From assembly GCF_003633755.1 (NCBI RefSeq), contig NZ_RBIL01000001.1, positions 3,891,426 to 3,955,425 on the forward strand: a stretch of 64,000 nucleotides of DNA. The letters run 5' to 3'. The notes under the pieces were generated by a model. That model was not told the origin of the DNA and searched no databases. It saw nothing but the letters and a program-made list of their open reading frames with translations. A program made the position numbers and the translations under genes. This document shows positions 13,411-31,197 of the stretch, piece after piece; the first letter of the stretch is position 1; each line of letters starts with the position of its first letter. The stretch is from Solirubrobacter pauli. Its GTDB lineage: Bacteria; Actinomycetota; Thermoleophilia; Solirubrobacterales; Solirubrobacteraceae.

Positions 13411-13439
13411 TCAACCTGCGCTCGCTGAAATGTCACTGA
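13411..13439 (-). promoter_or_regulatory. SARP-type direct-repeat site 1 (minus strand)
   Basis: On the minus strand: TCAGTGA-catt-TCAGCGA-gcgc-AGGTTGA, heptamers spaced every 11 bp. The site lies in the last codons of the carboxymuconolactone-decarboxylase-like gene and would drive the minus-strand genes ending at 11590. It matches the sites at 18335, 22819, 30641 and 31158. Confidence 0.6.
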
Positions 13440-13965
13440 CGCGCGGCACCTCGGCGTCCGGCGAGCCCGTGCGGCGCGCAGCGCTCGGTGTCTCCAGGCC
13501 CGCGATCGACGGGATGTCGTCCTCGGGCCCCGCATCCCGCATCAGCGCACCCACGAGCGCGTAGAAGCCGGTGGCGATGGTGACGCGGACAGCGTCGGAG
13601 CCGAGCGTGGCGCGCGAGGCGGCGCTGAGCCCTCCGGCCAGGATCTCGTCCACGGCGCGGAGCAGGTCCGCGTCATCGCCGGCGAACGCGTCCGCTCCGA
13701 GCGTCACGCGAGCCACCTCGTCAGGGGAGAGGACCGCGAGTCGCTGGGTGGACAGGAACGCGTGCGCCCGCCACACGTATTCGACGTCGACGACGGCGCT
13801 CACGCGCAGCGCGATGAGCTCGAGCACGCGGGCGTCCATGAGCTCGCTGAGCAGGCGGCCCTGGGCGTTGACGGTCTCGCCCAGCTCCGGCTCCGCCGCG
13901 AGACGGGCGAGCAATCGCCACGGGCGGATGTCGTGCCGCCAGTGGGTGGGGAACGCGCTGGACAC
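13411..13965 (-). CDS. Carboxymuconolactone decarboxylase-like protein lacking catalytic Cys
   Basis: 184 aa from the GTG at 13965, which lies 8 bp after the stop of the TPP-enzyme gene with GAGG in between. ELIALRVSAVVDVEYVWRAH and LLRAVDEILAGGLS match the AhpD/CMD helical fold. The Cys residues of the CxxC or CxxxH active site are absent, so it is probably not a peroxidase; a role beside the TPP enzyme is unknown. The frame is open upstream to 14160 but there it only shadows the TPP gene. The C-terminal 40 residues are low in structure and end inside a SARP-type site. Confidence 0.75.
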   Translation of the reverse strand: MSSAFPTHWRHDIRPWRLLARLAAEPELGETVNAQGRLLSELMDARVLELIALRVSAVVDVEYVWRAHAFLSTQRLAVLSPDEVARVTLGADAFAGDDADLLRAVDEILAGGLSAASRATLGSDAVRVTIATGFYALVGALMRDAGPEDDIPSIAGLETPSAARRTGSPDAEVPRVSDISASAG

Positions 13966-13973
13966 GACGACCC

Positions 13974-15635
13974 TCAGCGCCTCGCCCGCGCGCCGATCGG
14001 CGGCGCGACGGACGGGTCGAGGACGATGTCGATCAGATGCGGCGAGCGCGTCTCGAGCGCGAGCGTGAGCGCCTGCTCGAGCTGGGATGCGCTGGTGACC
14101 CGCGTCGCCCTCGCGCCCTTGGCTCGGGCCACGGCGGCGAAGTCGGTGTCGGGATACCAACCGTCATGGTCGAAGCGCCCGTGGGCTTCCATCCCGAAGC
14201 GGACGATGCTCGGCCCGCCGTTCGACATCACGCCCCAGATCGTGGGGAGGTCGTACTTGACGGCCGTGTTGATCTCGTCCTGCATGTGCATCGACGCGTC
14301 ACCGCACAGCGCGAACACGGGCGTGCGCAGCGCCGCGGCGGCGCCGACCGCGGCCGCGCCGGCGAACCCCATCGAACCCCAGGCCTGCTCCGAGAAGTAG
14401 CGATCGGCGACGGGGAACTCGAGGCGGTTGGCGCTCCAGAACATCGCGCTGGATGCGTCCGCGAAGTAGGGGAGCCCGGCGTCCACGACGACACGCTGCA
14501 GCACCTCGAGCATCTCGACGGGGTGGAGGCGGTCCGCCTGGGGCGTCGGCGCCGCGAACAGCCCTCGTGGCGGCCGCCGGCGCCGGAACCCGCGGCGTGC
14601 CAGCGGGCCGTCCAGCAGTGCCCGGAGCGTGAGCCCGATGTCGGCTTCGACGGCGATCGTCGGCGCCTGCGGGAAGCCGATCCCGAAGGCGCGATGGTCG
14701 TGGTCGACGTGAATCAGCCCGCCGGTCGGGACGAGCCGCGCATCCCAGCCCGAGGTCGCCTCGCCGAGCCGCGAGCCGAGCACGAGCACGCGCTCGACGC
14801 CGTAGCGCGCCAGCTCCTCGAAGACGAGCTCGTGGCCGCCGTTCCCGGTCACGCCGACGAACGTCGCGCAGCCGTCGGCGATCCCGAGCGCGCGCGGCGA
14901 CGCCAGCACCGGCAGCTGCGCCTTGGCGACGAACCGCCGCACGAGCTCGGCGTGCGGGCGTGCTCCGAACCCCACCCACACGGCGACCCGTTCGTCGTCG
15001 ATGATGGTCCGGATCTGCTCGACCTGGGTGGGGGAGGGCGCTCGCTTGGAGGGCGCGCACGGCGGGACCGCGATCTGGACGCTCGTCGCCTCGGCCTGCA
15101 GCGTTGTCGGCAGGGCGATGTGAGCGGTGAATCCCGGATCGTGTGCCAGACCGCGTGCGATCCGGCCGAACACCGCGGGCAGCTGGTCGGCCGTGTGGAC
15201 GTGGGCGACGTAGTCGAACAGGCGACCGGCGGCATGCAGCTCCGACAGCGTGAACCCGGAAGGCCCGGTCGCCTGGATGCCCAGCCGGTTGGTCTCGATC
15301 GGCGGGGTGAGCGGCGTCAGCAGGATGAGCGGCATGCGGGTCATCCGCGCGGCCATCAGCGCGTTGATCACGTTGGCGAGCCCCGGCCCGGTGGTCGCGG
15401 CGATGGCGGTCAGCCCGTCGGAGACCATCCAGTCACCGATCGCCATGAAGCCCGCACCGCTCTCGTGCCGGGCCTGGATCACGGCGATCGCGCTTCGGCC
15501 GAGCGCGTCGATCATGGGCGAGATCTCGCGCCCGCCGAGCGCGTACGCGCGCTCCACGCCGAGCGCGATCAGGCCGTCGGTGACCGCTTCCGCGACTTCG
15601 CGGACGCGTACCTGGGGGAAGGCTGCCTTGGTCAT
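13974..15635 (-). CDS. Thiamine-diphosphate-dependent enzyme (acetolactate synthase-like)
   Basis: 553 aa with the three domains of the POX/AHAS superfamily. The N-terminal Pyr domain has ALGG near residue 34, the catalytic Glu in QARHESGAGFMAIGD and the TTGPGLANVINAL loop; the central Rossmann-like domain has VWVGFGARPHAEL; the C-terminal PP domain has GDASMHMQDE followed about 20 residues later by SNGG, the ThDP/Mg site. The last Asn of the usual NN is replaced by Gly. It decarboxylates or ligates a 2-keto acid; the substrate cannot be told. Probably co-transcribed with the downstream CMD-like gene. Confidence 0.85.
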   Translation of the reverse strand: MTKAAFPQVRVREVAEAVTDGLIALGVERAYALGGREISPMIDALGRSAIAVIQARHESGAGFMAIGDWMVSDGLTAIAATTGPGLANVINALMAARMTRMPLILLTPLTPPIETNRLGIQATGPSGFTLSELHAAGRLFDYVAHVHTADQLPAVFGRIARGLAHDPGFTAHIALPTTLQAEATSVQIAVPPCAPSKRAPSPTQVEQIRTIIDDERVAVWVGFGARPHAELVRRFVAKAQLPVLASPRALGIADGCATFVGVTGNGGHELVFEELARYGVERVLVLGSRLGEATSGWDARLVPTGGLIHVDHDHRAFGIGFPQAPTIAVEADIGLTLRALLDGPLARRGFRRRRPPRGLFAAPTPQADRLHPVEMLEVLQRVVVDAGLPYFADASSAMFWSANRLEFPVADRYFSEQAWGSMGFAGAAAVGAAAALRTPVFALCGDASMHMQDEINTAVKYDLPTIWGVMSNGGPSIVRFGMEAHGRFDHDGWYPDTDFAAVARAKGARATRVTSASQLEQALTLALETRSPHLIDIVLDPSVAPPIGARARR

Positions 15636-15677
15636 GCCGCCCTATCTGCGGCATGAACGGGCACGCCGTCCAAGCGC

Positions 15678-15693
15678 GCCCGGGAATCCGGGC
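15678..15693 (-). terminator. Short hairpin after the response-regulator gene
   Basis: GCCCGG-GAAT-CCGGGC, a perfect 6-bp stem with a 4-nt loop, directly beyond the stop of the regulator gene at 15694. An almost identical hairpin (loop GTTT) lies at the other end of the kinase/regulator pair. Confidence 0.45.
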
Positions 15694-16455
15694 TCAGGGC
15701 TCCGGGATCATCCCCGGGTCGAGCACGAGCGGAAGCGGCGGGGCGGTCGGCAGGAGCCGGTCGTCTCGCAGGTCGACCCAGACCCAGCCGTCCGCTCGCG
15801 CCTTGGCCGCCATCGCGTGGGCGCCCGTCGCGACGTGCTGGCCGAAGTGCCCGACCACGGCCTTGCGCAGCTCGTCCGCGCGCGTCGACACGACCGACGG
15901 CTCGATGCCGAGCCGGGTGGCGATCTCGTCGTTCGGGATGCCCGCGTCGAAGTGACGGATGACGGCGCGCACGCTCGGCGGCAGCGCCAGCGCCGGCCTG
16001 TCGGGCCACCACTCGGCGCCCTCCATCACGGTGTACAGCAGCTCGACGCGCTCCGACCAGCCGTTGAGCGCCTTGCTCATGACGTGCTGGCCGCCGCAGA
16101 CGCGAAAGGTCCAGAACAGCTGGTCGTCGTTGCTCGACGTCCACAGCACCAGCCGCGTGTCCGTGAGCTGCTCCTCGCGGCGTCGCTGCGTGTAGATGAA
16201 GCTCGCCAGCTCGAGTGCGGACGGCCGCGGCTTCGCGTCCGCGCCACGGCGGAGGTGGTGGTCGATCAGCACGATGTCCGGGAATCGCTCGAGGTCCATC
16301 AGCGCGTCCTTGGCCCCGTCGAAGGTCCGCGCCTGGCCGACGATCCGCAGGCGCGGGCGGCCCGCGCGGCACTTGTCGATCTCCGCTTGCACCTGGTCGG
16401 CGTGCTCGATGTCCTCGCAGAGGAACAGCTCGATGTCGTCAGTCGCCCCGGACAT
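15694..16455 (-). CDS. Response regulator with LuxR-like C-terminal HTH
   Basis: 253 aa from the ATG at 16455, which overlaps the end of the upstream kinase-like gene by 17 bp. Receiver features are LFLCEDIEHAD (acidic pair), IVLIDHHLRRG (phospho-Asp), LVLWTSSNDDQ and VMSKALNGW (Lys). The C-terminal third reads VIRHFDAGIPNDEIATRLGI, EPSVVSTRADELRKAVVG, a helix-turn-helix of the NarL/sigma-4 type. The receiver has a long insert after the Asp (DAKPRPSALELASFIY), unlike ordinary NarL proteins. Partner of the adjacent membrane kinase-like protein. Its targets may include island genes, but no site is visible. Confidence 0.8.
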   Translation of the reverse strand: MSGATDDIELFLCEDIEHADQVQAEIDKCRAGRPRLRIVGQARTFDGAKDALMDLERFPDIVLIDHHLRRGADAKPRPSALELASFIYTQRRREEQLTDTRLVLWTSSNDDQLFWTFRVCGGQHVMSKALNGWSERVELLYTVMEGAEWWPDRPALALPPSVRAVIRHFDAGIPNDEIATRLGIEPSVVSTRADELRKAVVGHFGQHVATGAHAMAAKARADGWVWVDLRDDRLLPTAPPLPLVLDPGMIPEP

Positions 16456-18268
16456 GATCGGGGAACCCTGACAGAACGGCCGCCGAGCAGGACACCTCGA
16501 CGCCGAACCATCCCGGTCGCGGCCGCAACCCGACGAAGGCGCCGTCGGTGTTCTCCCGGCGGTCGAGGCGGCCCTGCGGCAGCTGCCGTGCCAGCCGTTC
16601 GATCCGCGCTCCCCCGCTTCCCCGCCGACCCCGTCGAGGGACAGGGCGACGCTCGTTGGCGACGCGCAGCACGAGCCGGTCACCCACGACGTCCAGCGCC
16701 ACGTACGCGCGCATCGTGCCGTGCACCTCCGCCTCGCGGATCAGCACCACCAGCAGGTTGTGCAGCGTCCTGGCGTCCTTGGCTGAACGCACGACGGCGG
16801 TCCGCAGCCCTTCGACGTCTCCGAACAGCGGCGTGCGCAGCTCCACGGGGGCCGGCTCACCCGCGAGCTCTGCGTCACGGGCGCGTGTCGCTGCCGCGTC
16901 CGTGTCGCCGAGCGGCACGTCGCTGTGACGGAACGCGGTCTCGACGAGCTCGAAGAGCACGTCGGGTGGCTGCTCGATCGCGTCGGCGTTGGCTTCGAGC
17001 ACGGCGGCGGCCTCGACCACCGTCGTGACGTCGGCGTCCAGCTCGAGCCCGGCGACCGCTTCCCGCAGCGTCCCCGCGACGTCGAGCATCCGCTCGCGCG
17101 CCTCGCGCACGGCGCGCACCGGCAAGGTCCCACTCGCGATGACCTGCGCCGCGGTGCTCGCGGACAGGGGCAAGATCGCGCCGTAGCTCGAGCCCGTGTA
17201 GAACACGGCCGCGAGCCCCGCCGCCACCTCCGCCGCGGTGCGTGGGAACGACACGCCGCGACGCGTCAGTCCCACGCTCTGCACGGTCGTCACGACCCCG
17301 ACGAACGTCGCGAGCCGTCGCCAGCTGAAGTCGGGGCGCTGCGCCCAGTTCGTCCAGCCGCCCGCGAAGACGCCGGACATCCACGACGGCTGGGTGTACA
17401 GCAGCACGCACGTCGCCGGTACTTCCACGCGGAGCAGCGCGTGGCGCACACGCCGTCCGGCGGCGCCACGATCCATGGCCGCGTCCGCGACGCGGGGTCC
17501 GGCGGTCGCGGTCGCGGTCGCGATCGCCGCGGCCGCCGCCCACGCCATCCCGCCCGGATGCCGCAGGTCAACCGGCGCCGCCGTCGCGTTGCTCAGCGCA
17601 GGGGCCAGACCGACGATCGCCGCCCGTGCCCAGAGCGTGAACAGCAGCGTCGACCACTCGATCTCGGCGGTGTGCAGCAGCCGCACCTCGTCGAGGACCA
17701 GCCCCACCTGCTCGATGACGTCGCCCAGCTCCGCGGGCACCCGTGCCGGCAGTCGCGGTCGCACGCCGTAGAGCGCGAGTGGGTCGCCGGCGCGTGAGGG
17801 CGCGTGCGGCGCGAAGCCGCCGAGCCGGCGTTGCTGGTCGACATCCTTGTCGCTCTCGCGCTGGGCGCGTGTCTCGAACAGCTGGCGCTCGAGAGCGTTG
17901 ATCCCGGCTCGTGCCGACGCGATCCGCCGCGCAGCGTCCGCGGCCATCGGCCCTGCCTGCAGACGTTCGAGCGCCGCCTCCGCGGCGCCGAAGGACGGCG
18001 TGTGCGTGCCGTCGTCCAGCAGCAGGTCGCGGAACGCACGCGCACGCTCCTGCTCGAAGGTCCGTCGCCCAGGCCCGATGCCCAGCGCGTGCTGGATCGC
18101 CCGTCGCGCGTTCGCGTAGGCGATGACCTGGCCGGCGAGGACCGCTGCGGCCGCGACCAGCGGCGAGCGCGCACGCTGCCGGTAGGCGAGCGTCCCCGTG
18201 GCCGCTGCGCCCAAGAGGGCAGCCGCGGCCCAGGGGGCCGGTCGCCAACGCTCGGAGTCGGTGTCCAT
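16439..18268 (-). CDS. Membrane sensor with degenerate histidine-kinase C-terminus
   Basis: 609 aa. An N-terminal pair of helices is followed by a charged coiled region, a block of about six further hydrophobic helices (residues about 215-360, including FTLWARAAIVGLAPAL and VAAGLAAVFYTGSSYGAIL), and a C-terminal region LLVVLIREAEVHGTMRAYVALDVVGDRLVLRVANERRP that aligns with an HATPase_c N-box and following strands. The G-boxes are degraded (RRGSGGARIERLARQLPQG). No clear phospho-accepting His box is visible. Overlap with the response regulator gene argues for a signalling pair. The gene is divergent from the GrpE-like gene, with a hairpin and a SARP-type site between them. Confidence 0.7.
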   Translation of the reverse strand: MDTDSERWRPAPWAAAALLGAAATGTLAYRQRARSPLVAAAAVLAGQVIAYANARRAIQHALGIGPGRRTFEQERARAFRDLLLDDGTHTPSFGAAEAALERLQAGPMAADAARRIASARAGINALERQLFETRAQRESDKDVDQQRRLGGFAPHAPSRAGDPLALYGVRPRLPARVPAELGDVIEQVGLVLDEVRLLHTAEIEWSTLLFTLWARAAIVGLAPALSNATAAPVDLRHPGGMAWAAAAAIATATATAGPRVADAAMDRGAAGRRVRHALLRVEVPATCVLLYTQPSWMSGVFAGGWTNWAQRPDFSWRRLATFVGVVTTVQSVGLTRRGVSFPRTAAEVAAGLAAVFYTGSSYGAILPLSASTAAQVIASGTLPVRAVREARERMLDVAGTLREAVAGLELDADVTTVVEAAAVLEANADAIEQPPDVLFELVETAFRHSDVPLGDTDAAATRARDAELAGEPAPVELRTPLFGDVEGLRTAVVRSAKDARTLHNLLVVLIREAEVHGTMRAYVALDVVGDRLVLRVANERRPVPRRGRRGSGGARIERLARQLPQGRLDRRENTDGAFVGLRPRPGWFGVEVSCSAAVLSGFPDHVRGD

Positions 18269-18320: not shown

Positions 18321-18334
18321 TGGACGACGACGGA

Positions 18335-18363
18335 TCAGCGGGAAATCAGCGCCGGATGCGACA
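18335..18363 (+). promoter_or_regulatory. SARP-type direct-repeat site 2
   Basis: TCAGCGG-gaaa-TCAGCGC-cgga-TGCGACA, period 11 bp. It lies 9 bp before the GTG chosen for the GrpE-like gene. If this is an activator site the transcript would be leaderless or the true start lies a little further downstream. Confidence 0.6.
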
Positions 18364-18371
18364 AGACAGGG

Positions 18372-19289
18372 GTGATCGCCGACGCGTGGAGAGCATTCGC
18401 CGAGAAACCCGTCGAGGACTTCGAGGCGCCGGCCCCGGCGCTCGAGCTGGCGACGGTGCTCGAACGCCACCACACGGACATGGACGCCGCCGCGCGCGCC
18501 GCGGCGCAGGGACGCGAGCGCGGGTTGCACGGCCTTGCGGAAGTCGCGGTGTTGGCCGTCGACCTCGAGAACCTGCTCGAGCGCAGCGGAGGTGCGTGGA
18601 GCGCCGCGCTGCGGGTGTTGAAAGACCAGATGCTCGCGGACATCGCCGCCGCAGGCCTGGAGATCGTGCGGCTGCGGGGCCTGCCCGCGCGTGCGACGGT
18701 CGACCTGGTCGACGTCGAGAGCTGGCGCTACGACGACGCGTACGCGGAAGCGGTCGTCGTGGAGGAGCTGGCGGTGGCGGTTCGTCATCTCGGACGACCG
18801 TTGCGGCGCGGTCGCGTCGTGATGGGAGCGCCCCAGAGCGGGGGTCCGCGGACGACGGACGACGGCCGTGCGCGAGCCTCACGGAGCGCGGCCGCGGAGG
18901 CGCACCCGCAGCGGCCGGTCGCGACCGTGCCGGGCAGCATCCTGTGCCCGGTCACGAGCTGCCGGCATCCGAACGCCCCGGACGCCGACGTGTGCGCGGC
19001 GTGCCTCACCCAGCTGGTCGTGTACCGTCGCTTCTCCCAGTTCCCCCAGGTGCTGTTCAACCGCGGTCTCCAGGCGGCCCGGTCGAGCGATCCGACGGGT
19101 GCTCGCGATCAGTTCGCGGCGGCTCTCGCCTGGGCTCCCGAGGACACGGAAGTCCGCAACGCCTACGCGCTCGCCTGCTTCGAGGCCGACGACGAGCCCG
19201 CGGCGCGTCGAGCGTGGGAAGAGGTGCTCGAGCGGATGCCGACCGACGCGCGCGCCCTCGCCGGGCTGAGCCGGCTGTCGAAGCGTTGA
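18372..19289 (+). CDS. GrpE-like protein fused to zinc ribbon and TPR domain
   Basis: 305 aa from GTG. Residues about 50-160 resemble GrpE: a helical part (AVDLENLLERSGGAWSAALRVLK), then the small beta domain (GLEIVRLRGLPARATVDLVD, AVVVEELAVAVRHLGRPLRRG), comparable to the Glu-Glu and GRVLRPA positions of GrpE. A four-Cys ribbon follows (CPVTSC...CAAC) and the C-terminus is a tetratricopeptide-like repeat (ALAWAPEDTEVRNAYALACF, RMPTDARALAGLSRLSKR). GrpE exchanges nucleotide on DnaK; the fusion suggests a dedicated adaptor that targets a chaperone to an island component. Starts at ATG 18480 or GTG 18460 are alternatives. Confidence 0.7.
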   Translation: MIADAWRAFAEKPVEDFEAPAPALELATVLERHHTDMDAAARAAAQGRERGLHGLAEVAVLAVDLENLLERSGGAWSAALRVLKDQMLADIAAAGLEIVRLRGLPARATVDLVDVESWRYDDAYAEAVVVEELAVAVRHLGRPLRRGRVVMGAPQSGGPRTTDDGRARASRSAAAEAHPQRPVATVPGSILCPVTSCRHPNAPDADVCAACLTQLVVYRRFSQFPQVLFNRGLQAARSSDPTGARDQFAAALAWAPEDTEVRNAYALACFEADDEPAARRAWEEVLERMPTDARALAGLSRLSKR

Positions 19290-19387: not shown

Positions 19388-22300
19388 ATGCCCGAGGTCG
19401 ACTACAGCATCCTGGGTCCGCTGGCCGTCCGGCTGGAGCCCGACGCGGTCGCGGTCGAGCTGCGCGAGACGCATCGCATGCTGCTTGGTCGCTTCCTGCT
19501 CGCCCCGGGGACGGTCCTGTCGGCAAGCACGCTCGCCGACGACGTCTGGGGTGAGGACCGTGAGCTCAAGCGCCGCTCGAACAGCGTGCAGGTCGCCATC
19601 GGACAGCTGCGTCAGAGGCTCAACGACTCGGGGCCCGCCTGGCGGGTGATCAACACGGTCGGCGCCGGGTATCGCCTCGTGGTCAACGACGCGATGCGGC
19701 TCGACGCCGAGCGCTTTCGGGCACTCGCAGGACGAGGCAAGGCGCTGTCGGAGTCGCAGCCGCGCGTCGCCCGGGCGATGCTCCAGGAGGCCTTGGCGTG
19801 TTGGCGTGGCCCGGTCCTGGGCGACCACGGCCGGCTGCACTGGGCGATCGGCCACGCGACCGAGCTCGAGATCCTGCGCAACCGCGCCGAGACCGACTTC
19901 AACGACGTGCGGCTCCTCCTGCACGAGTACGACGGGCTCGAAAGCACGTTGCGCCGGCAGATCCACGAGCACCCGGCGGATGAGCGCCGGCGGGCGCAGC
20001 TCATTCGCGCGCTCGACGGCGCCGGCCGTACCGCGGAGGCCGGCCTCGCATACCGGGATGCGGTGCGCGACCTCGGTGCGCTGGGTGCTGAGCTGCGACG
20101 GCTCGGCGAGCGGATCGGCCGTGGGCAGCGTGCCGACGACACGCGGATCTCCACCGTCGTGCACGCGCCGTTCGACGGTGCCCTGCTCTGCGCCAGGCTC
20201 GGCCCGACGCGCGATCCGGCCGGGCCTCGCCTCGGCACGACGGCGCTCCTCGTGGACCGCTGGGGCGGTGCGGCCCACGTGGTCGGTGACGACGAGCTCG
20301 TCGCGTGGTTCGAGGACCCGGGCGCGGCCATCCACGCCGCCGACGCGCTGGTCGCCGATGAGCGGCTGCGGCCCGCGATCGCTGTGCACGCCGGTCCATT
20401 GGTGCGGTTGGGCGATCTGATCGCCGGCGCCGGCCCGTCCCGCGCGCGTCTCCTCGCGGAGGCCGCCCATCCGGGACAGGTGCTCGTGTCCGAGGAAGCG
20501 CGGGCGCGGTGCAAGACCGGGCGGCCGCTGCGGAACCTCGGAGCGCAACGGTTCGCCGACCTTCTCCCGGGCGAGCCACTCTACGAGTTCGGCGGTGCAC
20601 AGAGCGAGCCCTTCCCGGCGCCTGAGACCCTCGACGTCGGGTTGCACAACCTGCCGGTCCAGCAGACGACGTTCGTCGGCCGTCGGCGCGCGCTGACCGA
20701 CATCTCGCGGCTCCTGTCCCTCGGGCAGCTTGTGACCGTCCTCGGGGCGGGCGGATGCGGGAAGACGCGCCTCGCGCTGCAGGTGGCCGCGAACCGGTTG
20801 CCCTTCTTCCATGACGGTGCGTGGTTCGTCGAGCTCGGGCAGCTCGAGACCGGCGCGGACGTCGAGACGCTCGCGATCGCCGCAGGCGGGCAACTCGGCG
20901 TTCGCCCGCTGCCTGACGAGCTTGCCTCCTCCGCGCTCGTCCGGCATCTCTCCGACCGTGCCCTGCTGCTGGTGCTCGACAACTGCGAGCACGCGCTGGC
21001 CGGCTGCGTCGAGCTCGTGTCGCAGATCCGGAGGTCCTGCCCCCGTGTCTGCGTCCTCGCGACCAGCCGTCAGCCTCTGCGGCTCGCGGGCGAGCGCGTC
21101 GTCGAGCTGCCCGCCATGGACCTCACGCACGCGAGTCCGGACGCGCTTCCCGAGGCCGTTCAGCTGCTGCTCGAGCGGTCCGGTCCGCTCGCCGGCGACG
21201 CGCGCGCGACCGTGCACGCCGCGACCCGGATCTGTCGGGCCGTCGAGGGCTCGCCGCTCGGCATCGAGCTCGCCGCCGGGCTCGTGGCCACGCGTGGGCT
21301 CGTGAACGTCGCCGATGACCTCGACACGCAGGTGCTCGGAGATCGGGTGCCGGACTTCTCCGATCCTGCACGCCCGCCGCGCCAGCGGACGATCGAAGCC
21401 ACGATCCGTTGGAGTCACGAGTTGCTCGACGCGCGCGCGAGACGTGTGCTGCATCGGCTCGCGGTGTTTCGAGGCTCGTTCGCGCTCGCCGAGGCGCAGG
21501 CGGTCGCCGGCGGCGACGACGAGGTCGGGCACGTGTTCGACGCGCTGATCGAGCGGTCGATGCTGACCGCCGAGCGGGCGGTCGCCGGTGAGCCGCGCAT
21601 GCGCCTCGGCCAACCCATCCGCGCGTTCGCGCTGGCTCGAGCCACCGACGACGAAGTCGAGCGCGTGCGTCGCCGACATGCCGAGGCGTTCCGAGACCTG
21701 GTCACGCGGATCGCGCCACGGCTGTTCGGCCCGGACGAGCAGATCGCGCTCGAGCGTCTCGAAGCGGATCACGACAACTTCCGCGCGGCGCTCGCGTGGA
21801 TGATCGAGGACGGGGATGTCGACGGCGCCCTGACCCTCGTCGGTGGGCTCTGGTGGCTGTGGTTCTCCCATGGCCACTTCGAGGAAGGCGCGGGGTGGAC
21901 GCAACAGGTCCTGGCGATGGATGAGCGCCCGTCGCAGCGGCGGGTACGCGCGCTGCGCGCCGGCTCGCACCTGTCCTGGTGGCGCGGTGACTACGCGCAG
22001 ACCCGGGCGTACAACCACGCGCTCGAAGCCTGTGCCCGAGAGCTGGGGGACGAGTGGGGCCTCGCCTGGGCGGCGCTCGGCGTCGGCGCCGCCCAGATGT
22101 TCCCGGACCCGGAGGGCTCGCTACCCCGGTTCGAGGAGAGCCGGAGCCGCTTCCAACGTCTTGGACGTGACTGGGAGGCGGCGTACGCGCAACAGCTCGT
22201 CGCCGCGTCGCATTGGTTCCGCGGCGACGAGAGAGCCGCCGGGCGCGCGTACCTCCAAGCCGCGGACGAGTTCGAGCGGCTCGAGCACGGCTCCGTCCTC

Positions 22301-22818: not shown

Positions 22819-22847
22819 TCAGCGGTTCTTCAGCGTCGCCCTGTGGA
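22819..22847 (+). promoter_or_regulatory. SARP-type direct-repeat site 3
   Basis: TCAGCGG-ttct-TCAGCGT-cgcc-CTGTGGA, period 11 bp, followed by a small palindrome GTGGAG-TG-CTCCAC at 22843-22856. It lies 35 bp before the 41-aa gene that opens the FtsK operon. Confidence 0.65.
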
Positions 22848-22881
22848 GTGCTCCACGCACGGCAACCCCAAGGAGGGTCGG

Positions 22882-23074: not shown

Positions 23075-23920
23075 ATGGGGTTCTTCTCGCGCGGCCCCGC
23101 GCGTCGCCCGCCGTACCTGTCCGCGACGCCGGCTGATCTGCGCCGGCTCGGCGAGCTGGCGTTCGGCGGGGAGAGCCCGTACCCGCCCGGCGTCAACGCC
23201 TTCCCGCCGGGTGAGCTGGATGGCTACGCGATGCACTTCCTCAAGGTCGCCGGATATCCGCCGATGGACTCGCCGCAGGGCCGCCAGGCGCAAGGCCAGT
23301 TCCTCGACGAGCTCGAGGCGGCCGCCGCGTCGGCCGGGGCGTGGGCCTACGTCGGCGCGATCTTCGTCGGCTGGAACGCGCTCACCGGGTCGTTCCTGGA
23401 AGACCCGCGCTACCGGCGCGTGGCCGATCGTGGCCTCGACACGCTGCGACGTGACGGCGTCTCCTACACGGCGATCCCGCCGTTCGCGCTCGACTGCTGG
23501 ACGCAGGCCCACGGCTACGAGGGCAGCCACCCGGCCGGCTGGCCGACCGCGCTGGCCGACCTGCCGATCCCGAACGAGGACGAAGCGCCGCCGGTGAAGG
23601 ACCTGGCGGACGGCGAAGCGCGCCGCCTCGCCCAGGCACCGGCCGCCCCCGCGAACTCGATCTACGCGGAACGCCGGCCCGACGGCACCGTGCAGGCGGT
23701 GGTCGAGGGCGTCGACCCGGACACCGGTGTGCTTCGCCGCTGGGACTGGGACGGGCTCAGCGCCCCGAGCTATCCCGCGTTCCTACGGGAGCTCGGCGAG
23801 CGTCTCGTCACGCACTCGTACTGGGCGCACGACGACCTGATCCCGTACTTCCCGTGCCGGCGTCGCTCGCGCGACCAGATGCGCGTCGAGGCCGGCGCGT
23901 TCCAGGCCGGAGCCCGGTAG
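23075..23920 (+). CDS. Unknown island protein with PYFP.RR C-terminal domain
   Basis: 281 aa from the ATG at 23075; the earlier in-frame start at 23018 adds only low-complexity residues. The N-terminus MGFFSRGPARRPPYL resembles MGWFSKGPKP of the protein segment starting at 32369. The middle is helical with conserved Trp/Tyr (YVGAIFVGWNALTG). The C-terminal 75 residues (NSIYAERRPDGTVQAVVEG, LRELGERLVTHSYWAHDDL, IPYFPCRRR) are homologous to the C-terminus of the protein at 29674-30318. The stop lies 3 bp before the ATPase gene. No known family recognised. Confidence 0.7.
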   Translation: MGFFSRGPARRPPYLSATPADLRRLGELAFGGESPYPPGVNAFPPGELDGYAMHFLKVAGYPPMDSPQGRQAQGQFLDELEAAAASAGAWAYVGAIFVGWNALTGSFLEDPRYRRVADRGLDTLRRDGVSYTAIPPFALDCWTQAHGYEGSHPAGWPTALADLPIPNEDEAPPVKDLADGEARRLAQAPAAPANSIYAERRPDGTVQAVVEGVDPDTGVLRRWDWDGLSAPSYPAFLRELGERLVTHSYWAHDDLIPYFPCRRRSRDQMRVEAGAFQAGAR

Positions 23921-23923: not shown

Positions 23924-26900
23924 GTGTCCCGGCCGGTCGAGCACGCGGAGGTCGGCGGTGCCGCGGACCAGCTGATGCGTCGCGTCCTCAATGAGGTCGA
24001 CGGGCTCCGCGCCCGGGTGCTGCGCGACGCGGACGACATCCGCAAGCTCCGCGACGACGTGCGCACCGCCCTGATCGAGGTCGAGCAGCGTGCTCGCGAG
24101 CACGTCGGCGCGTTCGTCCCGCGGGATCTCGGGGAGAGCATGCGTCGCGACCTCCAGCACGCGTTCGGCCGGGAGCTGCCGCGGCGCCGGCCGCCGCAGC
24201 CCCCGCCCACGACGTTCGACGAGGCACGCCAGGAATGGAACGGCCTCGTCGCCTTCGCGCAGGACGACGTCCGCGGCCTGATCGCCGCCAGACGCGCGTG
24301 GGACCAGAAGCTCGTCAAGCGCCGCAAGACGATGCCGACCGTCGGTGAAGCGCTCTGGACGGTGACCGTGCGGCTGTCGGAGATCCACGCCGCGCTGCCG
24401 GCCCTGCGCGAGAGGTACGTCACCGAGCGGCTCGACGCGAAGGCGGATCTGAACGGCGAGCTCAACGTGGAGATCGCCCGTCGCGCGCAGGTGATGGACG
24501 AGGTGTTCAGCGCTTCGCGGCGGGTGCTCGCCGAGGCCGAGCGAGCTGCGGGCCTGCCCGGCGCGGACTGGTCGGACCCGGGCTGGCGACAGGCGGCGCC
24601 GGCCGGCGCCCTCCAGCGCATGATCCGCGCGGGGGAGATCGACCCGCGGCTGCCGGCGTCCTCGGGCATCACGCGGCTTCCGCTCCTCCTCAGCCACCCG
24701 CTCACGTCGGGCGTCGCCATCGCGAGTGGCGTCGCGCGACGCCAGGAAGCGATCGATCTCGCGCGCTCGCTCGCGCTGCGGTCACTGGCCGCGACCCCAC
24801 CGGGCAAGCTGCGCTTCATCTTCGTCGACCCGGTCTCGCTCGGCCAGTCGGTCGCGGACTTCCGGCACCTCGCGGAGTACGACACCCGCCTGGTGGACAC
24901 GAAGACGTGGACCACCGAGCGGGAGATCGAGACCAAGGTGCATGAGCTCGCGGCCCATCTCGAGGTCGTCATCTCGACCTATCTGCGCGGGCAGTTCGAC
25001 TCGATCGAGGACTACAACCGCCAGGCCGGCGAGGTGGCCGAGCCCTACCGGGTGCTCGTCGTCCTCGACTACCCGACCGGCTTCTCGGCCGCGGCCGCGC
25101 GCCAGCTGCTGAGCCTGATCGAGAACGGCACCCGCTGCGGCGTGCACGTGATCCTCCAGCACGACCCTGAGCGCGGCTCGGTCGGCGAGGTGCCGCTCGC
25201 GCGCCTGACGCACTCCATGCAGCGCATCGACTTGACCACGACCGTGGGGCGGGTGATCCTGCCCGCCCCGATCGGCGAGGTCGCGGCGGATTTCGTGCCG
25301 GACGGGCTACCGCGGATGACGTTCACCGCGGACGGGCGTGCGGAGACGCCGACGGCGCAGCTCCTGCTCCGCGTCGGTGCCGAAGCGCGGCGGGCGCCGT
25401 CCGGGCCTGTGACGCTGCGCCAGGTGGTGCCGATCGTCAACCGGCTCGTCGCCACCGACCTGTCGTCGCAGGTCCCGGCGGTCCGGCCCGGCGCCCCGGA
25501 TCTCGATCCAGCGGACTCGGCGACGTGGTGGAACGCGACCACCGCGACCGGCGCGTGCGCGCCGATCGGACGGTCGGGCGCGCACGACATCGCCGCCCTC
25601 TACTTCTCCTCGACGGAGATCGCCGGCGGCGCGATCGTCGTCGGCCTGCCGCGAACCGGCAAGAGCACGGCGCTCCACGCCGCGATCGTCTCGTTGGCGA
25701 TGGTCTATCCACCGGAGGAGCTCGAGCTCTACCTCGTCGACAGCAAGCACGGTGTCGAGTTCAAGGTCTACGAGCACCTGCCGCACGCCCGTCTCGTGTC
25801 GATCAACAGCGAGCGCGAGTTCTCGGTCAACGTGCTCCAGAGCCTCGACGGCGAGATCCGCCGGCGCGCGGAGCTGATGAAGCGCGAGACCGCCGGCAAG
25901 GCGAACATCACGGAGTACCGGAGCACGACGGGCAAGGCGATGCCGCGGATCGTCCTGTTCATGGACGAGTTCCACGAGCTGTTCGAGGAGGACGATGCGC
26001 TCGGCCAGGCTGCGTTCCGGGCGTTCAGCAACATCGTCCGGCAAGGTCCGTTCGCGGGCGTCCATGTCGTCGTCTCGTCGCAGACGCTGTCGAGCATGCC
26101 GGCGATGGACCGGTCCACGCTCGCGCTGCTGCCGATGCGCGTCGCCTTCATGTGCAACGACGCCGACGCGGACCTCGTGATGGGCGACCTCAACCGCGAG
26201 GTCCGCGCGCTCACGCAGCAGGGCGAGGGCATCTTCAACCCCGCGCGCGGAGAGCCTTCGCACAACAAGCCGTTCCGTGGCCTGTACATCCCCTCCGACG
26301 AGCGCGGCCTGCTGCTCACCGAGATCGGGCAGAAGGCCGCGCGGGCCGGGATCACCCGCGTCCCGCGCGTGTTCGACGGCGATCGTCTCGCGCAGCGCCC
26401 TTCCGCGTGGCCTCAGGTCAGCGCCGGTCGGCCGGTGCTCGCCCTCGGCGAGCCGTTCGACCTGGATCCGTACGCCGGCATCGCGCTGCGCCGCGGCCGC
26501 GGCAGCAACGTGCTGCTCCTGGGCTCGGCCGCCGACGACGCCGACGCGGACCCGGCGGTCGCGGCCGCCCTGCAGTCGTGCGTGGCCGGAGCGAAGGTTA
26601 ACGGGATGGCGGTCCAAGTCATCGACTTCATCGGCGACACCGAACCTGCGGAAGGGCTCGACCTGCTGGAGCTGTGCGAGGCGCTCTCGGTGTCGTACCG
26701 GCGCGCATCCGGGTTCCTCGGCGAGCTGGAGGCGACGTTGGGGGAGGTGGAGACGCGGCGACGCGCTGAGGACTACCGCCGGCCCGGGCGGCTGCTCGTG
26801 CTCAACGGGATCCACCGGGCGTTCGACCTCGCTCCGGAGGACCCGTACGCCGACCCGGACGATCCACCCCGGCCCGGCACGCTGCTCGCACGCGTCGTGC

Positions 26901-27190
26901 GCGACGGTCCGGAGGTCGGCTGCCACACAGCCGTGCTGGTCGACAGCCTGGTGCAGTTCGAACGCAAGGCCGGTCGCGATCTGCTGTCCGAGTTCGAGTG
27001 GTGCGTCACCGGAAGCGACGCGACCGTGGCCGAGATCACGACCGTCACCGACGTCTACAACGCGCCGGCGGTCCGCTCGAGCCAGTTGTTGCTCGCCGAC
27101 CGCGCCGGCGGAAAGCAGCGCCGGATCCGTGCCTATCCGCGCCACACGATCAAGTCATTGCCCAGGTCTGACCACAGGAGCAGCACATGA
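23924..27190 (+). CDS. FtsK/SpoIIIE-type ATPase, EccC-like
   Basis: 1088 aa from GTG. The N-terminal 230 residues are helical and coiled-coil-like. The first ATPase-like domain (about 245-480) has no P-loop but keeps a Walker-B-like VLVVLDYP. The central domain is intact, with Walker A GLPRTGKST near residue 575 and Walker B RIVLFMDEFHELFE near 675, then VVVSSQTLSSM, the sensor region of FtsK motors. The third domain (about 860-1088) is degenerate (VLLLGSAADDADAD at the P-loop position). Three tandem FtsK-like domains resemble EccC of type VII secretion, but transmembrane helices, EccB/D/E and mycosin genes are absent. It overlaps the next gene by ATGA. Confidence 0.85.
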   Translation: MSRPVEHAEVGGAADQLMRRVLNEVDGLRARVLRDADDIRKLRDDVRTALIEVEQRAREHVGAFVPRDLGESMRRDLQHAFGRELPRRRPPQPPPTTFDEARQEWNGLVAFAQDDVRGLIAARRAWDQKLVKRRKTMPTVGEALWTVTVRLSEIHAALPALRERYVTERLDAKADLNGELNVEIARRAQVMDEVFSASRRVLAEAERAAGLPGADWSDPGWRQAAPAGALQRMIRAGEIDPRLPASSGITRLPLLLSHPLTSGVAIASGVARRQEAIDLARSLALRSLAATPPGKLRFIFVDPVSLGQSVADFRHLAEYDTRLVDTKTWTTEREIETKVHELAAHLEVVISTYLRGQFDSIEDYNRQAGEVAEPYRVLVVLDYPTGFSAAAARQLLSLIENGTRCGVHVILQHDPERGSVGEVPLARLTHSMQRIDLTTTVGRVILPAPIGEVAADFVPDGLPRMTFTADGRAETPTAQLLLRVGAEARRAPSGPVTLRQVVPIVNRLVATDLSSQVPAVRPGAPDLDPADSATWWNATTATGACAPIGRSGAHDIAALYFSSTEIAGGAIVVGLPRTGKSTALHAAIVSLAMVYPPEELELYLVDSKHGVEFKVYEHLPHARLVSINSEREFSVNVLQSLDGEIRRRAELMKRETAGKANITEYRSTTGKAMPRIVLFMDEFHELFEEDDALGQAAFRAFSNIVRQGPFAGVHVVVSSQTLSSMPAMDRSTLALLPMRVAFMCNDADADLVMGDLNREVRALTQQGEGIFNPARGEPSHNKPFRGLYIPSDERGLLLTEIGQKAARAGITRVPRVFDGDRLAQRPSAWPQVSAGRPVLALGEPFDLDPYAGIALRRGRGSNVLLLGSAADDADADPAVAAALQSCVAGAKVNGMAVQVIDFIGDTEPAEGLDLLELCEALSVSYRRASGFLGELEATLGEVETRRRAEDYRRPGRLLVLNGIHRAFDLAPEDPYADPDDPPRPGTLLARVVRDGPEVGCHTAVLVDSLVQFERKAGRDLLSEFEWCVTGSDATVAEITTVTDVYNAPAVRSSQLLLADRAGGKQRRIRAYPRHTIKSLPRSDHRSST

Positions 27191-27462
27191 GCGACGCCGT
27201 CGTCGCCGACCCGGACGACGTCAAGCGACTCGCGCGCGAGCTCGAGACGTACCGGTCGAAGATCCAGGACGCGAGCAAGCAGGCGCAGAACGCGATCAAC
27301 CGAGCGAACTGGAAGGATCGCCAGAAGCAGCAGTTCGAGGACAAGTTCCGCGACTTCCAGCGCCAGACGGACCGCTTCGTCGACGCGCAGGTCAAGGACT
27401 TCGTCAAGCAGCTGAACGCGCTGGCGCACGACCTCGAGAAGGCACGGAGCCACCGGTTCTGA
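27187..27462 (+). CDS. WXG100-like small coiled-coil protein
   Basis: 91 aa, almost entirely helical and charged. The centre reads NRANWKDRQKQQFEDKFRDF, a Trp in a turn between two helices followed by spaced Phe residues, as in WXG100/EsxA-like proteins, with WKD in place of WxG. The start overlaps the stop of the FtsK-like ATPase gene (ATGA), the gene pairing expected for an ESX-type substrate and its motor. No C-terminal YxxxD/E secretion signal is evident. Assignment to the WXG100 superfamily is by fold and context. Confidence 0.7.
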   Translation: MSDAVVADPDDVKRLARELETYRSKIQDASKQAQNAINRANWKDRQKQQFEDKFRDFQRQTDRFVDAQVKDFVKQLNALAHDLEKARSHRF

Positions 27463-27920
27463 TGGCGGCTCCCGTCGATGCTCGCGTCAGCGCCGTGCGC
27501 ACCTTGGCGGACGGTTTGACGACCTACCAGCGCGGGTTCCAGGCCGCGATCGCGTCCGCACGCTCGGACATGACCCGTGCGGTCGCCGATTTCCAGGTGG
27601 CGACGGCACGGAGCCAGGCCTCGTTCGACCGCGCGGCCCGCGAAGCCGCGGCGCGAGAAGCTGAGCTGGCTCGCTGCACCGAGCGCTGCGAGGACCTGGC
27701 ACGCGCCCACGCGCGGGCGGTCGTGCACCGTGACGAGTGCCGCCGGCACCGGGATCGGCACAAGCAGGCGCTCGCGAAGGTCGAACGGGCGGCGGAGGAT
27801 CTGTTGGCGACGATCCAGGCCGTCGAGGGCGCGGCCGGCCAGACGATCCCGCGCGGGCGCAAGCACATCCAGGAGTACGCGACGATCCTCGATCAGTACC
27901 TGCAGCGGAGCGCGTCATGA
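27462..27920 (+). CDS. Coiled-coil island protein
   Basis: 152 aa beginning one base inside the previous stop. It is a long alpha-helical protein with heptad-like Ala/Arg/Glu content (AAREAAAREAELARCTERCE) and two Cys in the central helix, ending in AAGQTIPRGRKHIQEYATIL. It could be a structural partner or chaperone of the WXG100-like protein. No family recognised. The coupling on both sides makes it an obligate member of the operon. Confidence 0.7.
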   Translation: MAAPVDARVSAVRTLADGLTTYQRGFQAAIASARSDMTRAVADFQVATARSQASFDRAAREAAAREAELARCTERCEDLARAHARAVVHRDECRRHRDRHKQALAKVERAAEDLLATIQAVEGAAGQTIPRGRKHIQEYATILDQYLQRSAS

Positions 27921-28132
27921 GCGAGCTGCGCCAGGCGCTCACGAGCCAGCGCGAAGCGTTGCAGGCGCTCACGCACAGCCGGGCCTCGGCCGGGGCGTGG
28001 GTGGACGGCCAGCGCGCGAGCCTGGACAAGCACTGCCTCGATCCGCTGGCAGCGGACGGGCGTCGGTTGTACGAGGCGATGAAGCACGCGTCCCAGGAGA
28101 TCCTGGCGGCACAGCGGATGCTGGCGCCATGA
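27917..28132 (+). CDS. Second small WXG100-like helical protein
   Basis: 71 aa coupled by ATGA overlaps at both ends. Two helices flank SAGAWVDGQRASLDKH, where AWVDG sits in the turn position of WXG100 proteins. With the 27187 gene it could form the heterodimer typical of ESX systems, although it is shorter than the usual 100 residues. The N-terminus is QALTSQREALQALTHSR, strongly amphipathic. Confidence 0.6.
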   Translation: MSELRQALTSQREALQALTHSRASAGAWVDGQRASLDKHCLDPLAADGRRLYEAMKHASQEILAAQRMLAP

Positions 28133-29643
28133 TCGGGCCGAAGACCGAGGCGGCGTTGCAGCGCGCGGACCTGTGGCCGCCCAGCTCGGAGACGAGAGAG
28201 CTGATCCAGCTCGGGCTGATGCGGATGGGCGCCGGCGACGACGACGTGCTCGAGATCACGCGTGCGTTCTGGCGAACCGAGACGCACGGCGGCCAGAGCG
28301 TCCTCATCCTCACGCGGACCCAGCAGTGCGCCGTGCTGGAACCGGTGTCGGTCGGCGTCCTGCGGCGGCGCAAGAGCCGTCCCGCGGTGCTGCAGATCAA
28401 GCACACGCAGGTCCGGGACCTGATCGACAGCAACGACGAAGGGGCGGTGATCTTCTTCGTCGGGGCGGGCGAGAACCCCGACTTCCTGCTCGCCTTCGAC
28501 CGCACCGCCGAACGCGATCGCTTCTACCCATGCGTGTTCGCCGCGCAGCGCGGCGACTTCACCCGCTGGGGCTTGCAGCTCGACCCCGCGCACTACGTCG
28601 CCGACTTCGATCGCTTCTACGCGGAGCTCGTCGCCTCGGGCATCGAGGACCGACGCGCGTTGTCGCAGTGGGTCGAAGCGCAATACGAGGAGCACGCGAT
28701 CGAGAGCGCGCTTGGGTTCGCGACCGCGTGGCGTGGCGCCGAGCTGGACGACCGCACGCCATCGAGATGGAACACGAGCGCCCGGGTCGGCCGGATCGCT
28801 CAGCCCGCACCCTGGGACCACCACCCCCAGAGTCACCGGCTGTTCGTGCGTCTGGGCGAGCAGCTCTACGACGACGGCCTGCTCGGCCCGCCGTACGACG
28901 AACGCAGCTTCGACACCGGCGAGCCGTTGAGCTCGGGCGATGCCGGCCCCGCACGGCTGCTCGCGCTGATGTGGCTCGCGGCGTTCGCGCACGAGCTCCG
29001 CGACCACCGCGCGACGGAGTTCATCGGGGCGGCGCGACCGTACCTGCGCTCGGTTCCCGCGCAGGTCTTCTCGGGGGCGCTGCGGACGGCGTGGGCCGAC
29101 ATCGCGTCCCTTCCGGATCCGGAGGAGCCACGCGAGCTCGAGATCTGGGAGGACACCGAGGTCGCGATGATCTGCAAGCCGCAGGACGGTGCCGTGCGCT
29201 ACGACACCAGCGCCCTGGGACCGGTCGATCGCGCGCACGTCGAACGGTTCCTGCAGAGCTTGAGCACGATCGACGAACAGGCGGGCTGCATCGCAGCCGC
29301 GCTCGCCGCCGTCAACGCCTACGAGGAGCTCTCCCCGCTGGCACCCGTCGGATGGCGCAAGCTGCTCGTGTACCACGCGTCCGAGCTGGCGCACCACGTC
29401 TGGCGCCGGTTCGGCCTCGACCACGAGACCGCGATGCTCGCGCAGTGGGTCGTCGTGACGATCGGCGCGCAGGGCTGGGGACCGGACGGCAACTCCAGCC
29501 CGCTCGGCCAGCACCACTCCTACGCCATGCACCTCGCGGGCGAGACGACGGTCGGGCTGCTGGTGATCGACCCGGAGACTGGGCGCGCGTCGGTCCCGAC
29601 CGGGGACGAAGCGCGCCGCGCCGCGGACAGAGGAGCGTTCTGA
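28129..29643 (+). CDS. Unknown 504-aa island protein with PH-like N-terminus
   Basis: Starts at the ATG inside the preceding stop. Residues about 25-135 are beta-rich and resemble a bacterial PH-like fold (QSVLILTRTQQCAVLEPVSV, SRPAVLQIKHTQVRDLID, AVIFFVGAGENPDFLLAF). The remainder is mainly helical with conserved aromatic positions (HRLFVRLGEQLYDDGLLGPP, AALAAVNAYEELSPL, SELAHHVWRRFGLDHE). No enzyme motif is evident. PH-like domains often bind lipids or partner peptides, so it may be a membrane-side scaffold of the FtsK-like machine. Novel as far as I can tell. Confidence 0.7.
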   Translation: MIGPKTEAALQRADLWPPSSETRELIQLGLMRMGAGDDDVLEITRAFWRTETHGGQSVLILTRTQQCAVLEPVSVGVLRRRKSRPAVLQIKHTQVRDLIDSNDEGAVIFFVGAGENPDFLLAFDRTAERDRFYPCVFAAQRGDFTRWGLQLDPAHYVADFDRFYAELVASGIEDRRALSQWVEAQYEEHAIESALGFATAWRGAELDDRTPSRWNTSARVGRIAQPAPWDHHPQSHRLFVRLGEQLYDDGLLGPPYDERSFDTGEPLSSGDAGPARLLALMWLAAFAHELRDHRATEFIGAARPYLRSVPAQVFSGALRTAWADIASLPDPEEPRELEIWEDTEVAMICKPQDGAVRYDTSALGPVDRAHVERFLQSLSTIDEQAGCIAAALAAVNAYEELSPLAPVGWRKLLVYHASELAHHVWRRFGLDHETAMLAQWVVVTIGAQGWGPDGNSSPLGQHHSYAMHLAGETTVGLLVIDPETGRASVPTGDEARRAADRGAF

Positions 29644-29673
29644 TGTTCGAGTGGGGGCTGGAGTGATGAAACG

Positions 29674-30318
29674 GTGGTTCACGCGGGCTACGGCCCGGAG
29701 CGACGGCGCGGTTCCCGCGCACGTCGTGGCCCTGCTCCCGGCATCGACGCGGTGCTCGACGGGTTGCAGGCGGCGGCGCTCGACGCCGCCGACCGCAGGG
29801 CGGCGACGATCGGCGCCTACGGGCTGTTCGGCGAGCTCGAACCGGAGTCGCGCGACCCGCGGTTCCTGTCCCTGTTGGACGACACGCTGGAGCAGATCCG
29901 CGCCGCCGGGCTCTCCAGTGGGCATCTCAACCGGTATGAGGCGGACCGGTGGATCGAGCTCCACGGCGAGCTGCGGTCGAGCTTCGACCGGGTCTTCGAG
30001 GTCGAGGTCCCGGATGTCGCGGACCTCCCGTCCGCCCGTCCCCTGATGCGCGGAGACGTCCGCCGGCTCGCGCTCACGGAACCGCTGCCGTTCGGCAACG
30101 CGTTCTTCGCCGAGCACCGGCAGGACGGCACCTTCGTCGTGTTCTCCGAGCGCATCTACAGCCACGAGGACCCCACGCGCTCGCGGTACGACGAGCACCA
30201 TCTCGGCATGTTCCACACCTTCGAGGATCTGCTCCGAGCGCTGGGAGGCGAGCTGCGTACGCCGACCCACTGGTTCGACGACGACCTCGAGCCGTACTTC
30301 CCGCAGCGGCGGGCTTGA
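29674..30318 (+). CDS. Unknown island protein with PYFP.RR domain; probable frameshift at its 5' end
   Basis: As read, 214 aa beginning with shadow-like residues. A better N-terminus exists in another frame from the ATG at 29666 (MKRWFTRATARSDGAVPAHV), which joins PGIDAVLDGLQAAALDAADR if one G is added in the run ccggc near 29740. The true protein is therefore probably 29666-30318 with a one-base deletion or sequencing error. The C-terminal half (NAFFAEHRQDGTFVVFSERI, LLRALGGELRTPTHWFDDDL, EPYFPQRR) is homologous to the C-terminus of the protein at 23075. Unknown function. Confidence 0.6.
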   Translation: MVHAGYGPERRRGSRARRGPAPGIDAVLDGLQAAALDAADRRAATIGAYGLFGELEPESRDPRFLSLLDDTLEQIRAAGLSSGHLNRYEADRWIELHGELRSSFDRVFEVEVPDVADLPSARPLMRGDVRRLALTEPLPFGNAFFAEHRQDGTFVVFSERIYSHEDPTRSRYDEHHLGMFHTFEDLLRALGGELRTPTHWFDDDLEPYFPQRRA

Positions 30319-30640: not shown

Positions 30641-30669
30641 TCAGTGAAGTTTCAGCGCGGTCCGGTGGA
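30641..30669 (+). promoter_or_regulatory. SARP-type direct-repeat site 4
   Basis: TCAGTGA-agtt-TCAGCGC-ggtc-CGGTGGA, period 11 bp, 46 bp before the start of the gene at 30715. Confidence 0.65.
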
Positions 30670-30714
30670 GTCCGCGGTGCAGGGCTCCGTATCAGCGAAG
30701 GACTGGAGGGAAGG

Positions 30715-31101
30715 GTGGGCGAGAAGTCAGCCGAGTTCCGAACCGCACTGAGCGTCAAGGAGTGTGGCTTGCGGTTCCGGTCAGGCATCGAGGGCGGGCG
30801 CGGAGCGAGCGCGTGGATCGGCGGCCTCACGGCAAAGGCGCTCGGAGGTGAGACGCTCACCTGGTACACCCCGCGCGACAACACGCCGTTCGCGGCACTC
30901 AACGACGACCCACCGATGTTCAGCGTCGGTGTCGGCGTCCCGAAAGCGCAGGGCGCGCACCAGCACGGCACCAACGTGCAGATGCACGTCTGGGATCGCG
31001 GCAGCTACCGCGACGTGGTCCTGTGGGCACACCACTCCCTCGCCGGCGGGATGCATGCGTCGAAGCTGCTCGCGGCTGCAGAGGCGGCGGTCAGGGCCTG
31101 A
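30715..31101 (+). CDS. Unknown 128-aa island protein
   Basis: GTG start with GGAGGG 5 nt upstream; the frame is open further upstream, but that stretch contains the SARP-type site and is not convincing. The protein is Gly/Trp-rich with few charged patches (IEGGRGASAWIGGLTAKALG, WYTPRDNTPFAALNDDPPMF, SVGVGVPKAQGAHQHG, RDVVLWAHHSLAGGMH). It is a monocistronic unit between its own SARP-type site and a very strong hairpin, so it is probably highly expressed. Possibly an exported substrate or structural protein; no signal peptide is visible. No family recognised. Confidence 0.65.
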   Translation: MGEKSAEFRTALSVKECGLRFRSGIEGGRGASAWIGGLTAKALGGETLTWYTPRDNTPFAALNDDPPMFSVGVGVPKAQGAHQHGTNVQMHVWDRGSYRDVVLWAHHSLAGGMHASKLLAAAEAAVRA

Positions 31102-31102
31102 T

Positions 31103-31143
31103 CGTGCCCGCGGGTGCCCCCACGCGGGGCACCCGCGGGCACG
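31103..31143 (+). terminator. Strong hairpin terminator
   Basis: A perfect 18-bp stem (arms 31103-31120 and 31126-31143, beginning CGTGCCCGCGGG) with a 5-nt loop cacgc, beginning one base after the stop codon of the 30715 gene. It separates two SARP-controlled units. Confidence 0.8.
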
Positions 31144-31157
31144 CGGTGACGGTGCCG

Positions 31158-31197
31158 TCAGTGGGATTTCAGTGAAGGCAGTTGCACTGATCACTAC
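31158..31197 (+). promoter_or_regulatory. SARP-type direct-repeat site 5
   Basis: TCAGTGG-gatt-TCAGTGA-aggc-AGTTGCA-ctga-TCACTAC, period 11 bp with a weaker fourth copy, 61 bp before the HEAT-repeat gene. Confidence 0.65.

Follow-up and report, generated by a model that had tools for sequence, protein, structure and literature searches.

The window analysed here is a stretch of 64,000 nucleotides from the genome of Solirubrobacter pauli (GCF_003633755.1, contig NZ_RBIL01000001.1, positions 3,891,426–3,955,425, forward strand). It carries a gene for a large SARP and, scattered around it, five copies of a tandem heptamer repeat, and it raises the question of whether these form a single regulated system, as a sequence-only reading had proposed. 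To our knowledge, SARPs are known almost solely for switching antibiotic clusters of Streptomyces-like bacteria.

Five tandem repeats and their placement

All five copies of the motif TCAGYGR-N4-TCAGYG were found where they had been placed, with zero mismatches: at 13439–13423 on the minus strand and at 18335, 22819, 30641 and 31158 on the plus strand. Together with their downstream flanks, the sites are as follows.

13409–13439, minus strand: site 1, TCAGTGA-N4-TCAGCG with candidate -10 TTGAGT, within the final codons of the upstream minus-strand ORF
18335–18365, plus strand: site 2, TCAGCGG-N4-TCAGCG, the weakest, without a clear -10, upstream of the TPR protein and the SARP
22819–22849, plus strand: site 3, TCAGCGG-N4-TCAGCG with TGGAGT, upstream of the peptide/FtsK/WXG operon
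30641–30671, plus strand: site 4, TCAGTGA-N4-TCAGCG with TGGAGT, upstream of the 128-aa protein
31158–31188, plus strand: site 5, TCAGTGG-N4-TCAGTG with TGCACT, upstream of the HEAT protein

Against these five exact matches, the mean of 100 dinucleotide shuffles of the window is 0.01. A scan of the whole genome (7,135,497 bases in four contigs), which bears on the earlier proviso that the motif be rare elsewhere, gave seven exact matches, five of them in this island within one 18 kb stretch, and a single exact match to a control motif read backwards. Taken over 146 genomes, the family-wide background averages about one match each. Allowing one mismatch raises the genome-wide count to 77, compared with 31 for the backward-read control, an excess that indicates a small number of additional sites or a modest level of background. 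Twenty of 70 one-mismatch matches, picked by their spacer, were inspected; the majority lie within predicted genes and one in a tRNA (L185), while two intergenic matches, L171 (C1:3730151) and L172 (C2:1826102), might be minor extra sites.

To correct for the choice of the motif after the fact, every hexamer with one two-fold position was scored de novo over 11434–33272. TCAGYG emerged as the most enriched word at 11 bp, with 5 pairs against 0.031 expected and a -log10 p of 9.6; on the same scale, the best of 100 Markov simulations reached 4.6 and the best value at 14 other spacings 4.5. A looser enrichment test with one mismatch was dominated by GC-rich words. Since the test with no word named in advance again gives TCAGYG at 11 bp, the enrichment is not an artefact of motif choice, and the five-site observation is real and far from chance. 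In a matrix scan of the window, the five sites take the top five scores, which then drop from 28 to 12 bits; with leave-one-out matrices, four of the five rank 5th and site 2 ranks 22nd. The likeness among the sites is limited to the repeats and a -10-like block.

This block replaces an element of the earlier description. A weaker third heptamer had been assigned downstream of the pair, and it was rejected for its poor match: by hand count, sites 1 and 3 agree with TCAGYGR at only 2–3 of 7 bases over positions +23 to +29. What is conserved there instead is GTKGAGT, at +25 to +31, common to sites 1, 3 and 4; the significance of this triple identity is modest, with p about 0.003 in the near flank 3' of the repeat and 0.02 over a 200-base flank. 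The sequence T[TG]GAGT begins 7 bp past heptamer 2 in the same three sites, with TGCACT in site 5 and nothing clear at site 2. A SARP operator would be expected to leave about 8 bp between its 3' repeat and the -10 element; the afsS promoter itself has a poor -10, CACTGT (PMC10936776). Because T[TG]GAGT falls at -12 to -7 of the AfsR model, we read it as a weak candidate -10 element.

In that model, the 22-bp box at afsS is centred at -29.5 (PMC10936776). Applied here, it places the first T of heptamer 1 at -37 and predicts a transcription start 37 bases downstream of it. Measured from the predicted starts of sites 1–5, the nearest downstream start codon in the same orientation is 127, 0, 26, 37 and 64 nt away, a placement with p about 1.4e-6 relative to random positions on a hand-curated gene list. 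Each site had been said to precede an island gene or operon, and all five do point at a gene. Site 1 is directed at a 37-aa ORF (13275–13165) and the Cys-rich ORF. For site 2, the model puts the start exactly on the GTG at 18372, which would make the transcript leaderless.

The large SARP and the published operators

The proposed regulator lies between sites 2 and 3.

19388–22810, plus strand: large SARP with an OmpR-type wHTH, a BTAD, a degenerate cyclase-like segment, a STAND NTPase and TPRs

The assignment of a 1140-aa SARP to this ORF is confirmed by its N-terminus, which matches PF00486 with 46.5 bits (cut-off 26.2) and then PF03704 with 65.6 bits (cut-off 22.1), wHTH and BTAD thus both lying well over the Pfam cut-offs, and by its relatives in the PDB, EmbR (E 3.6e-9) and AfsR (E 6e-6). 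The Walker A sequence GAGGCGKT is intact at residue 453. Matches to NB-ARC, AAA and TPR families fall below the Pfam cut-offs, and the alignment with related large SARPs is colinear. Residues from about 280 to 410 align to the cyclase domain of a relative without its LFTDIEGST motif, and this segment (window 20150–20740) gave no Pfam match. Close relatives of the protein were sought in 146 genomes of the family, 396 of the phylum and plasmids, and none was found; nor was an orthologous island in the same genome sets. Further large STAND-type SARP relatives are present in this genome.

The residues that AfsR uses to contact DNA were compared at six positions described as highly conserved in SARPs (Q48, W74, P79, T88, R94 and K95). 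Two of the six are kept in the island protein, as W54 and R75. The base-contacting T88 and R92 of AfsR correspond to V69 and Q73. With the base-contacting residues changed, membership of the SARP family is clear, yet the exact DNA preference is not predictable from the family.

The repeats were compared with published operators directly. PapR2, shown by EMSA to bind at redP and redQ, has the consensus GTCAGSS (PMC7040171), which the ten island heptamers match at 5–7 of 7 positions, and in the afs box the upstream repeat includes TTCAGC (PMC10936776). The claimed resemblance to SARP heptameric repeats of 11-bp period is borne out by both. The PapR2 and RedD type of SARP has a practically identical heptamer and the same 4-bp spacers; these are, however, small SARPs without a STAND part that control antibiotic genes, whereas the island protein is large and of STAND type (PMC7040171).

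AfsR and the afs box share with the island a large SARP with NTPase and TPR parts, two 11-bp repeats at the same spacing to a poor -10 (in the island a candidate one), and a small target gene just downstream of the SARP gene, afsS in the one case and a predicted target in the other (PMC10936776). AfsR is nevertheless a chromosomal pleiotropic regulator, whereas the putative targets of the island SARP number five within one island, and the island protein differs in the changes at T88 and R92 and in the added degenerate cyclase-like segment (PMC10936776). The SARP-LAL regulators of PimR type also combine a SARP domain with cyclase-like and NTPase parts, and their heptamers too have 4-bp spacers, but the PimR heptamer is CGGCAAG, its main operator consists of three repeats outside the -35 region and it has one target gene (PMC5930380).

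A variable segment at tRNA-Thr and its cargo

The sites and the SARP gene lie in a segment that varies within the genus.

7777–33350: genus-variable segment between the conserved left flank and the tRNA-Thr gene (33351–33424)
11434–11454, plus strand: left copy of TGTCACCCAAT(T/C)GTCACCAGG, a 21-bp candidate attachment repeat
33251–33271, plus strand: right copy of TGTCACCCAAT(T/C)GTCACCAGG, 80 bp from the tRNA-Thr gene

Of six genus relatives fetched, three share the conserved left flank (window 1–7776), and all six have the tRNA-Thr gene together with the sequence downstream of it. The 25.6 kb between the flanks is absent or replaced in the three relatives with the conserved left flank (1.5 kb in G138), and had no match in the regions fetched from the remaining three. 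The 21-bp repeat has no third copy genome-wide at up to three mismatches. It is itself an 11-bp direct repeat, TGTCACC-N4-TGTCACC, and a near-identical sequence stands beside tRNA-Thr in three relatives (G133, G134 and G137), adjoining a tyrosine integrase in G137; it may serve as an attachment site or as an arm site for an integrase. Among the window proteins searched, none gave a match to an integrase, and G137 carries its tyrosine integrase at the corresponding tRNA-Thr site (L165). The segment is probably a tRNA-Thr island that has lost its integrase or never had its own, with candidate left ends at 7.8 and 11.4 kb.

Some further features of the segment were noted. Besides the integrase, the same tRNA-Thr site in G137 (L165:954-10232) encodes a sigma-70-like factor and a pair of large dynamin-like GTPases; it is an exchange hotspot whose cargo may serve defence. 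Members of a family with the sequence MG(F/V)LDHRRTWRY lie at both island ends (11590–12231, minus strand, and 32883–33011, plus strand), the right copy seemingly truncated and degenerate. The minus strand from 13974 to 18268 encodes a TPP-dependent enzyme, an HTH protein and a 609-aa product with no family match, none of them preceded by a repeat of the TCAGYG kind.

The genes behind the five sites, apart from the SARP, are listed below.

12996–13184, minus strand: Cys-rich protein, 62 aa, behind site 1
18372–19289, plus strand: zinc-ribbon/TPR protein, first gene behind site 2
22882–23007, plus strand: peptide ORF, 41 aa, with a Shine-Dalgarno sequence, first ORF behind site 3
23075–23920, plus strand: 281-aa protein without a family match
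23924–27190, plus strand: FtsK ATPase of EssC/EccC-like type, with one central Walker A (574) and without a membrane stretch
27187–27462, plus strand: WXG100-like protein, 91 aa, 21.0 bits, below the Pfam cut-off of 27.3
27462–28132, plus strand: two small helical/coiled-coil ORFs (27462–27920 and 27917–28132)
28129–29643, plus strand: 504-aa protein without a family match
30715–31101, plus strand: 128-aa protein, with one close relative (64–66% identity) in a distant genome, G220
31259–32851, plus strand: HEAT-repeat protein, with site 5 upstream

The GrpE part of the label GrpE-TPR, given earlier to the product of 18372–19289, finds no support in Pfam, which gives TPR and a weak zinc ribbon only. 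The best NCBIfam matches of the FtsK protein are EccC and EssC, and its highest 19-residue hydropathy is 1.44. Its relatives, at about 30–37% identity, occur in Planctomycetota, Chloroflexota, Frankia, Nocardia and others, and a WXG-like gene frequently lies next to them; many have it in the same position as here, and the neighbours are similar in size, at 87–90 aa. No convincing SARP was seen near the relatives at 85 loci screened, many of them on contigs short enough to miss one, and the FtsK protein had no match in viral contigs. PADLOC returned generic FtsK-type (SspH, mad8) and TPR matches only.

The operons most like this cargo are the extended CoCoNuT and stand-alone mobile EssC-like FtsK/WXG100 operons, whose FtsK likewise has one active central ATPase and no membrane helices, and which include WXG100-like and helical partners and a HEAT protein (PMC11090510). 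The McrB-like GTPase and coiled-coil nuclease of the CoCoNuT systems were not found in the island, which has SARP-type operators (PMC11090510). Judged by its sequences, the cargo of a coiled-coil EssC-like FtsK with a WXG100-like partner is of a kind already described, and the putative SARP device probably controls a secretion- or conflict-like module, not an antibiotic pathway. Operator, regulator family and cargo class are thus each known; their combination was not found described in the open-licence literature.

Minor observations concern individual cargo genes. The 281-aa protein starts MGFFSRGP, and a similar MGWFSKGP occurs inside the HEAT ORF (at about 32369); two genes may have fused to give this ORF, or the motif may be a shared N-terminal signal. 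The 281-aa protein and the product of ORF 29644–30318 resemble each other at their ends (23820–23862 and 30269–30311; DDL.PYFP..R; DNA repeat D12), and the two are probably paralogues; the start region of the latter seems frameshifted. In G220 (L192:17221-19268), the only close relative of the 128-aa protein has an MvdD-like ATP-grasp gene nearby, itself a weak Pfam match, which may hint at a peptide-maturation setting.

The probable regulon and rival explanations

With SARP-type sites ahead of its genes and a SARP gene of its own, the island probably answers to its own regulator, which would turn all of it on together. We hold with some confidence that the five repeats are the operators of one regulon under the SARP of 19388–22810. 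The original proposal of one SARP-regulated island is supported except in two details: the protein domains, the 11-bp period, the heptamer, the promoter position and the confinement to the island fit it, the third heptamer and the GrpE label fell away, and the link from protein to DNA is one that we infer.

In the proposed mechanism, a signal would switch the STAND NTPase and TPR part of the SARP. By analogy with AfsR, the protein would bind each 22-bp site as a side-by-side dimer, make up for the poor contact of sigma region 4 at -35 and recruit RNA polymerase, as AfsR does at afsS. The EssC-like FtsK/WXG100 operon, the 128-aa protein, the HEAT protein and the Cys-rich set would be co-activated, and, as the gene order suggests, the SARP would raise its own expression through site 2. 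Positive autoregulation is likely, because site 2 precedes the TPR–SARP gene pair.

A serious rival, though we think it improbable, is control from outside the island by an OmpR-type regulator of the host, either a PhoP/PhoB-like response regulator or another SARP. Direct repeats of 11 bp are the footprint of the entire OmpR/PhoB class, AfsR and PhoP of Streptomyces bind overlapping boxes, and the genome has other STAND-type SARP relatives while the recognition helix of the island protein is unusual. Host promoters should then carry such sites as well, but the genome has just two exact matches beyond the island, neither with the -10 block, and most of the 20 one-mismatch matches inspected are intragenic. 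A division of labour, in which the SARP is a repressor or acts at some sites only (e.g. in feedback at site 2) and a partner such as the HTH protein of 15694–16683 uses the rest, would account for the divergence of site 2 in the leave-one-out ranking and for the second HTH-like protein in the variable segment. We give it very little credence: both heptamers are exact at all five sites, and the candidate partner has only a weak Pfam HTH match, to a type that is not known to use tandem heptamers of 11-bp period.

The least probable account, by a little, is that the repeats arose by coincidence, or were spread by duplication of a promoter segment, and have no present function. The motif was indeed picked after the sites had been seen, and the 128-aa and FtsK families occur elsewhere without sites; in G220, the relative of the 128-aa protein has no repeat upstream, and the single exact repeat of that genome sits elsewhere, upstream of an unrelated gene. 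The enrichment nevertheless holds after correction for choice, the sites resemble one another in the repeats and the -10-like block only, and their placement ahead of start codons is strict.

Returning to a regulon under the island SARP, a more far-reaching version is that the STAND-type protein is a combined infection or stress sensor and transcription factor: sensing would open its NTPase/TPR part, after which the SARP domain would turn on a WXG100/EssC-like conflict island through a positive-feedback promoter. We regard this version as doubtful. If the sensor reading were true, bacterial immunity would here put STAND sensing to transcriptional use. A five-promoter SARP regulon in a mobile island would make the SARP switch a portable module, it would suggest how such islands remain silent until needed, and one protein with five operators would offer a precise handle on an EssC-like FtsK/WXG100 system.

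A related arrangement was seen in two genus relatives. In G133 (L187:9398; G133:C378:80397), and also in G134, three copies of TCAGCGG at 11-bp period lie between the gene for a LuxR-type STAND regulator and the next gene. As they adjoin this regulator and not a SARP, they were set aside as a SARP-linked operator; the triple repeat is a probable further tandem operator.
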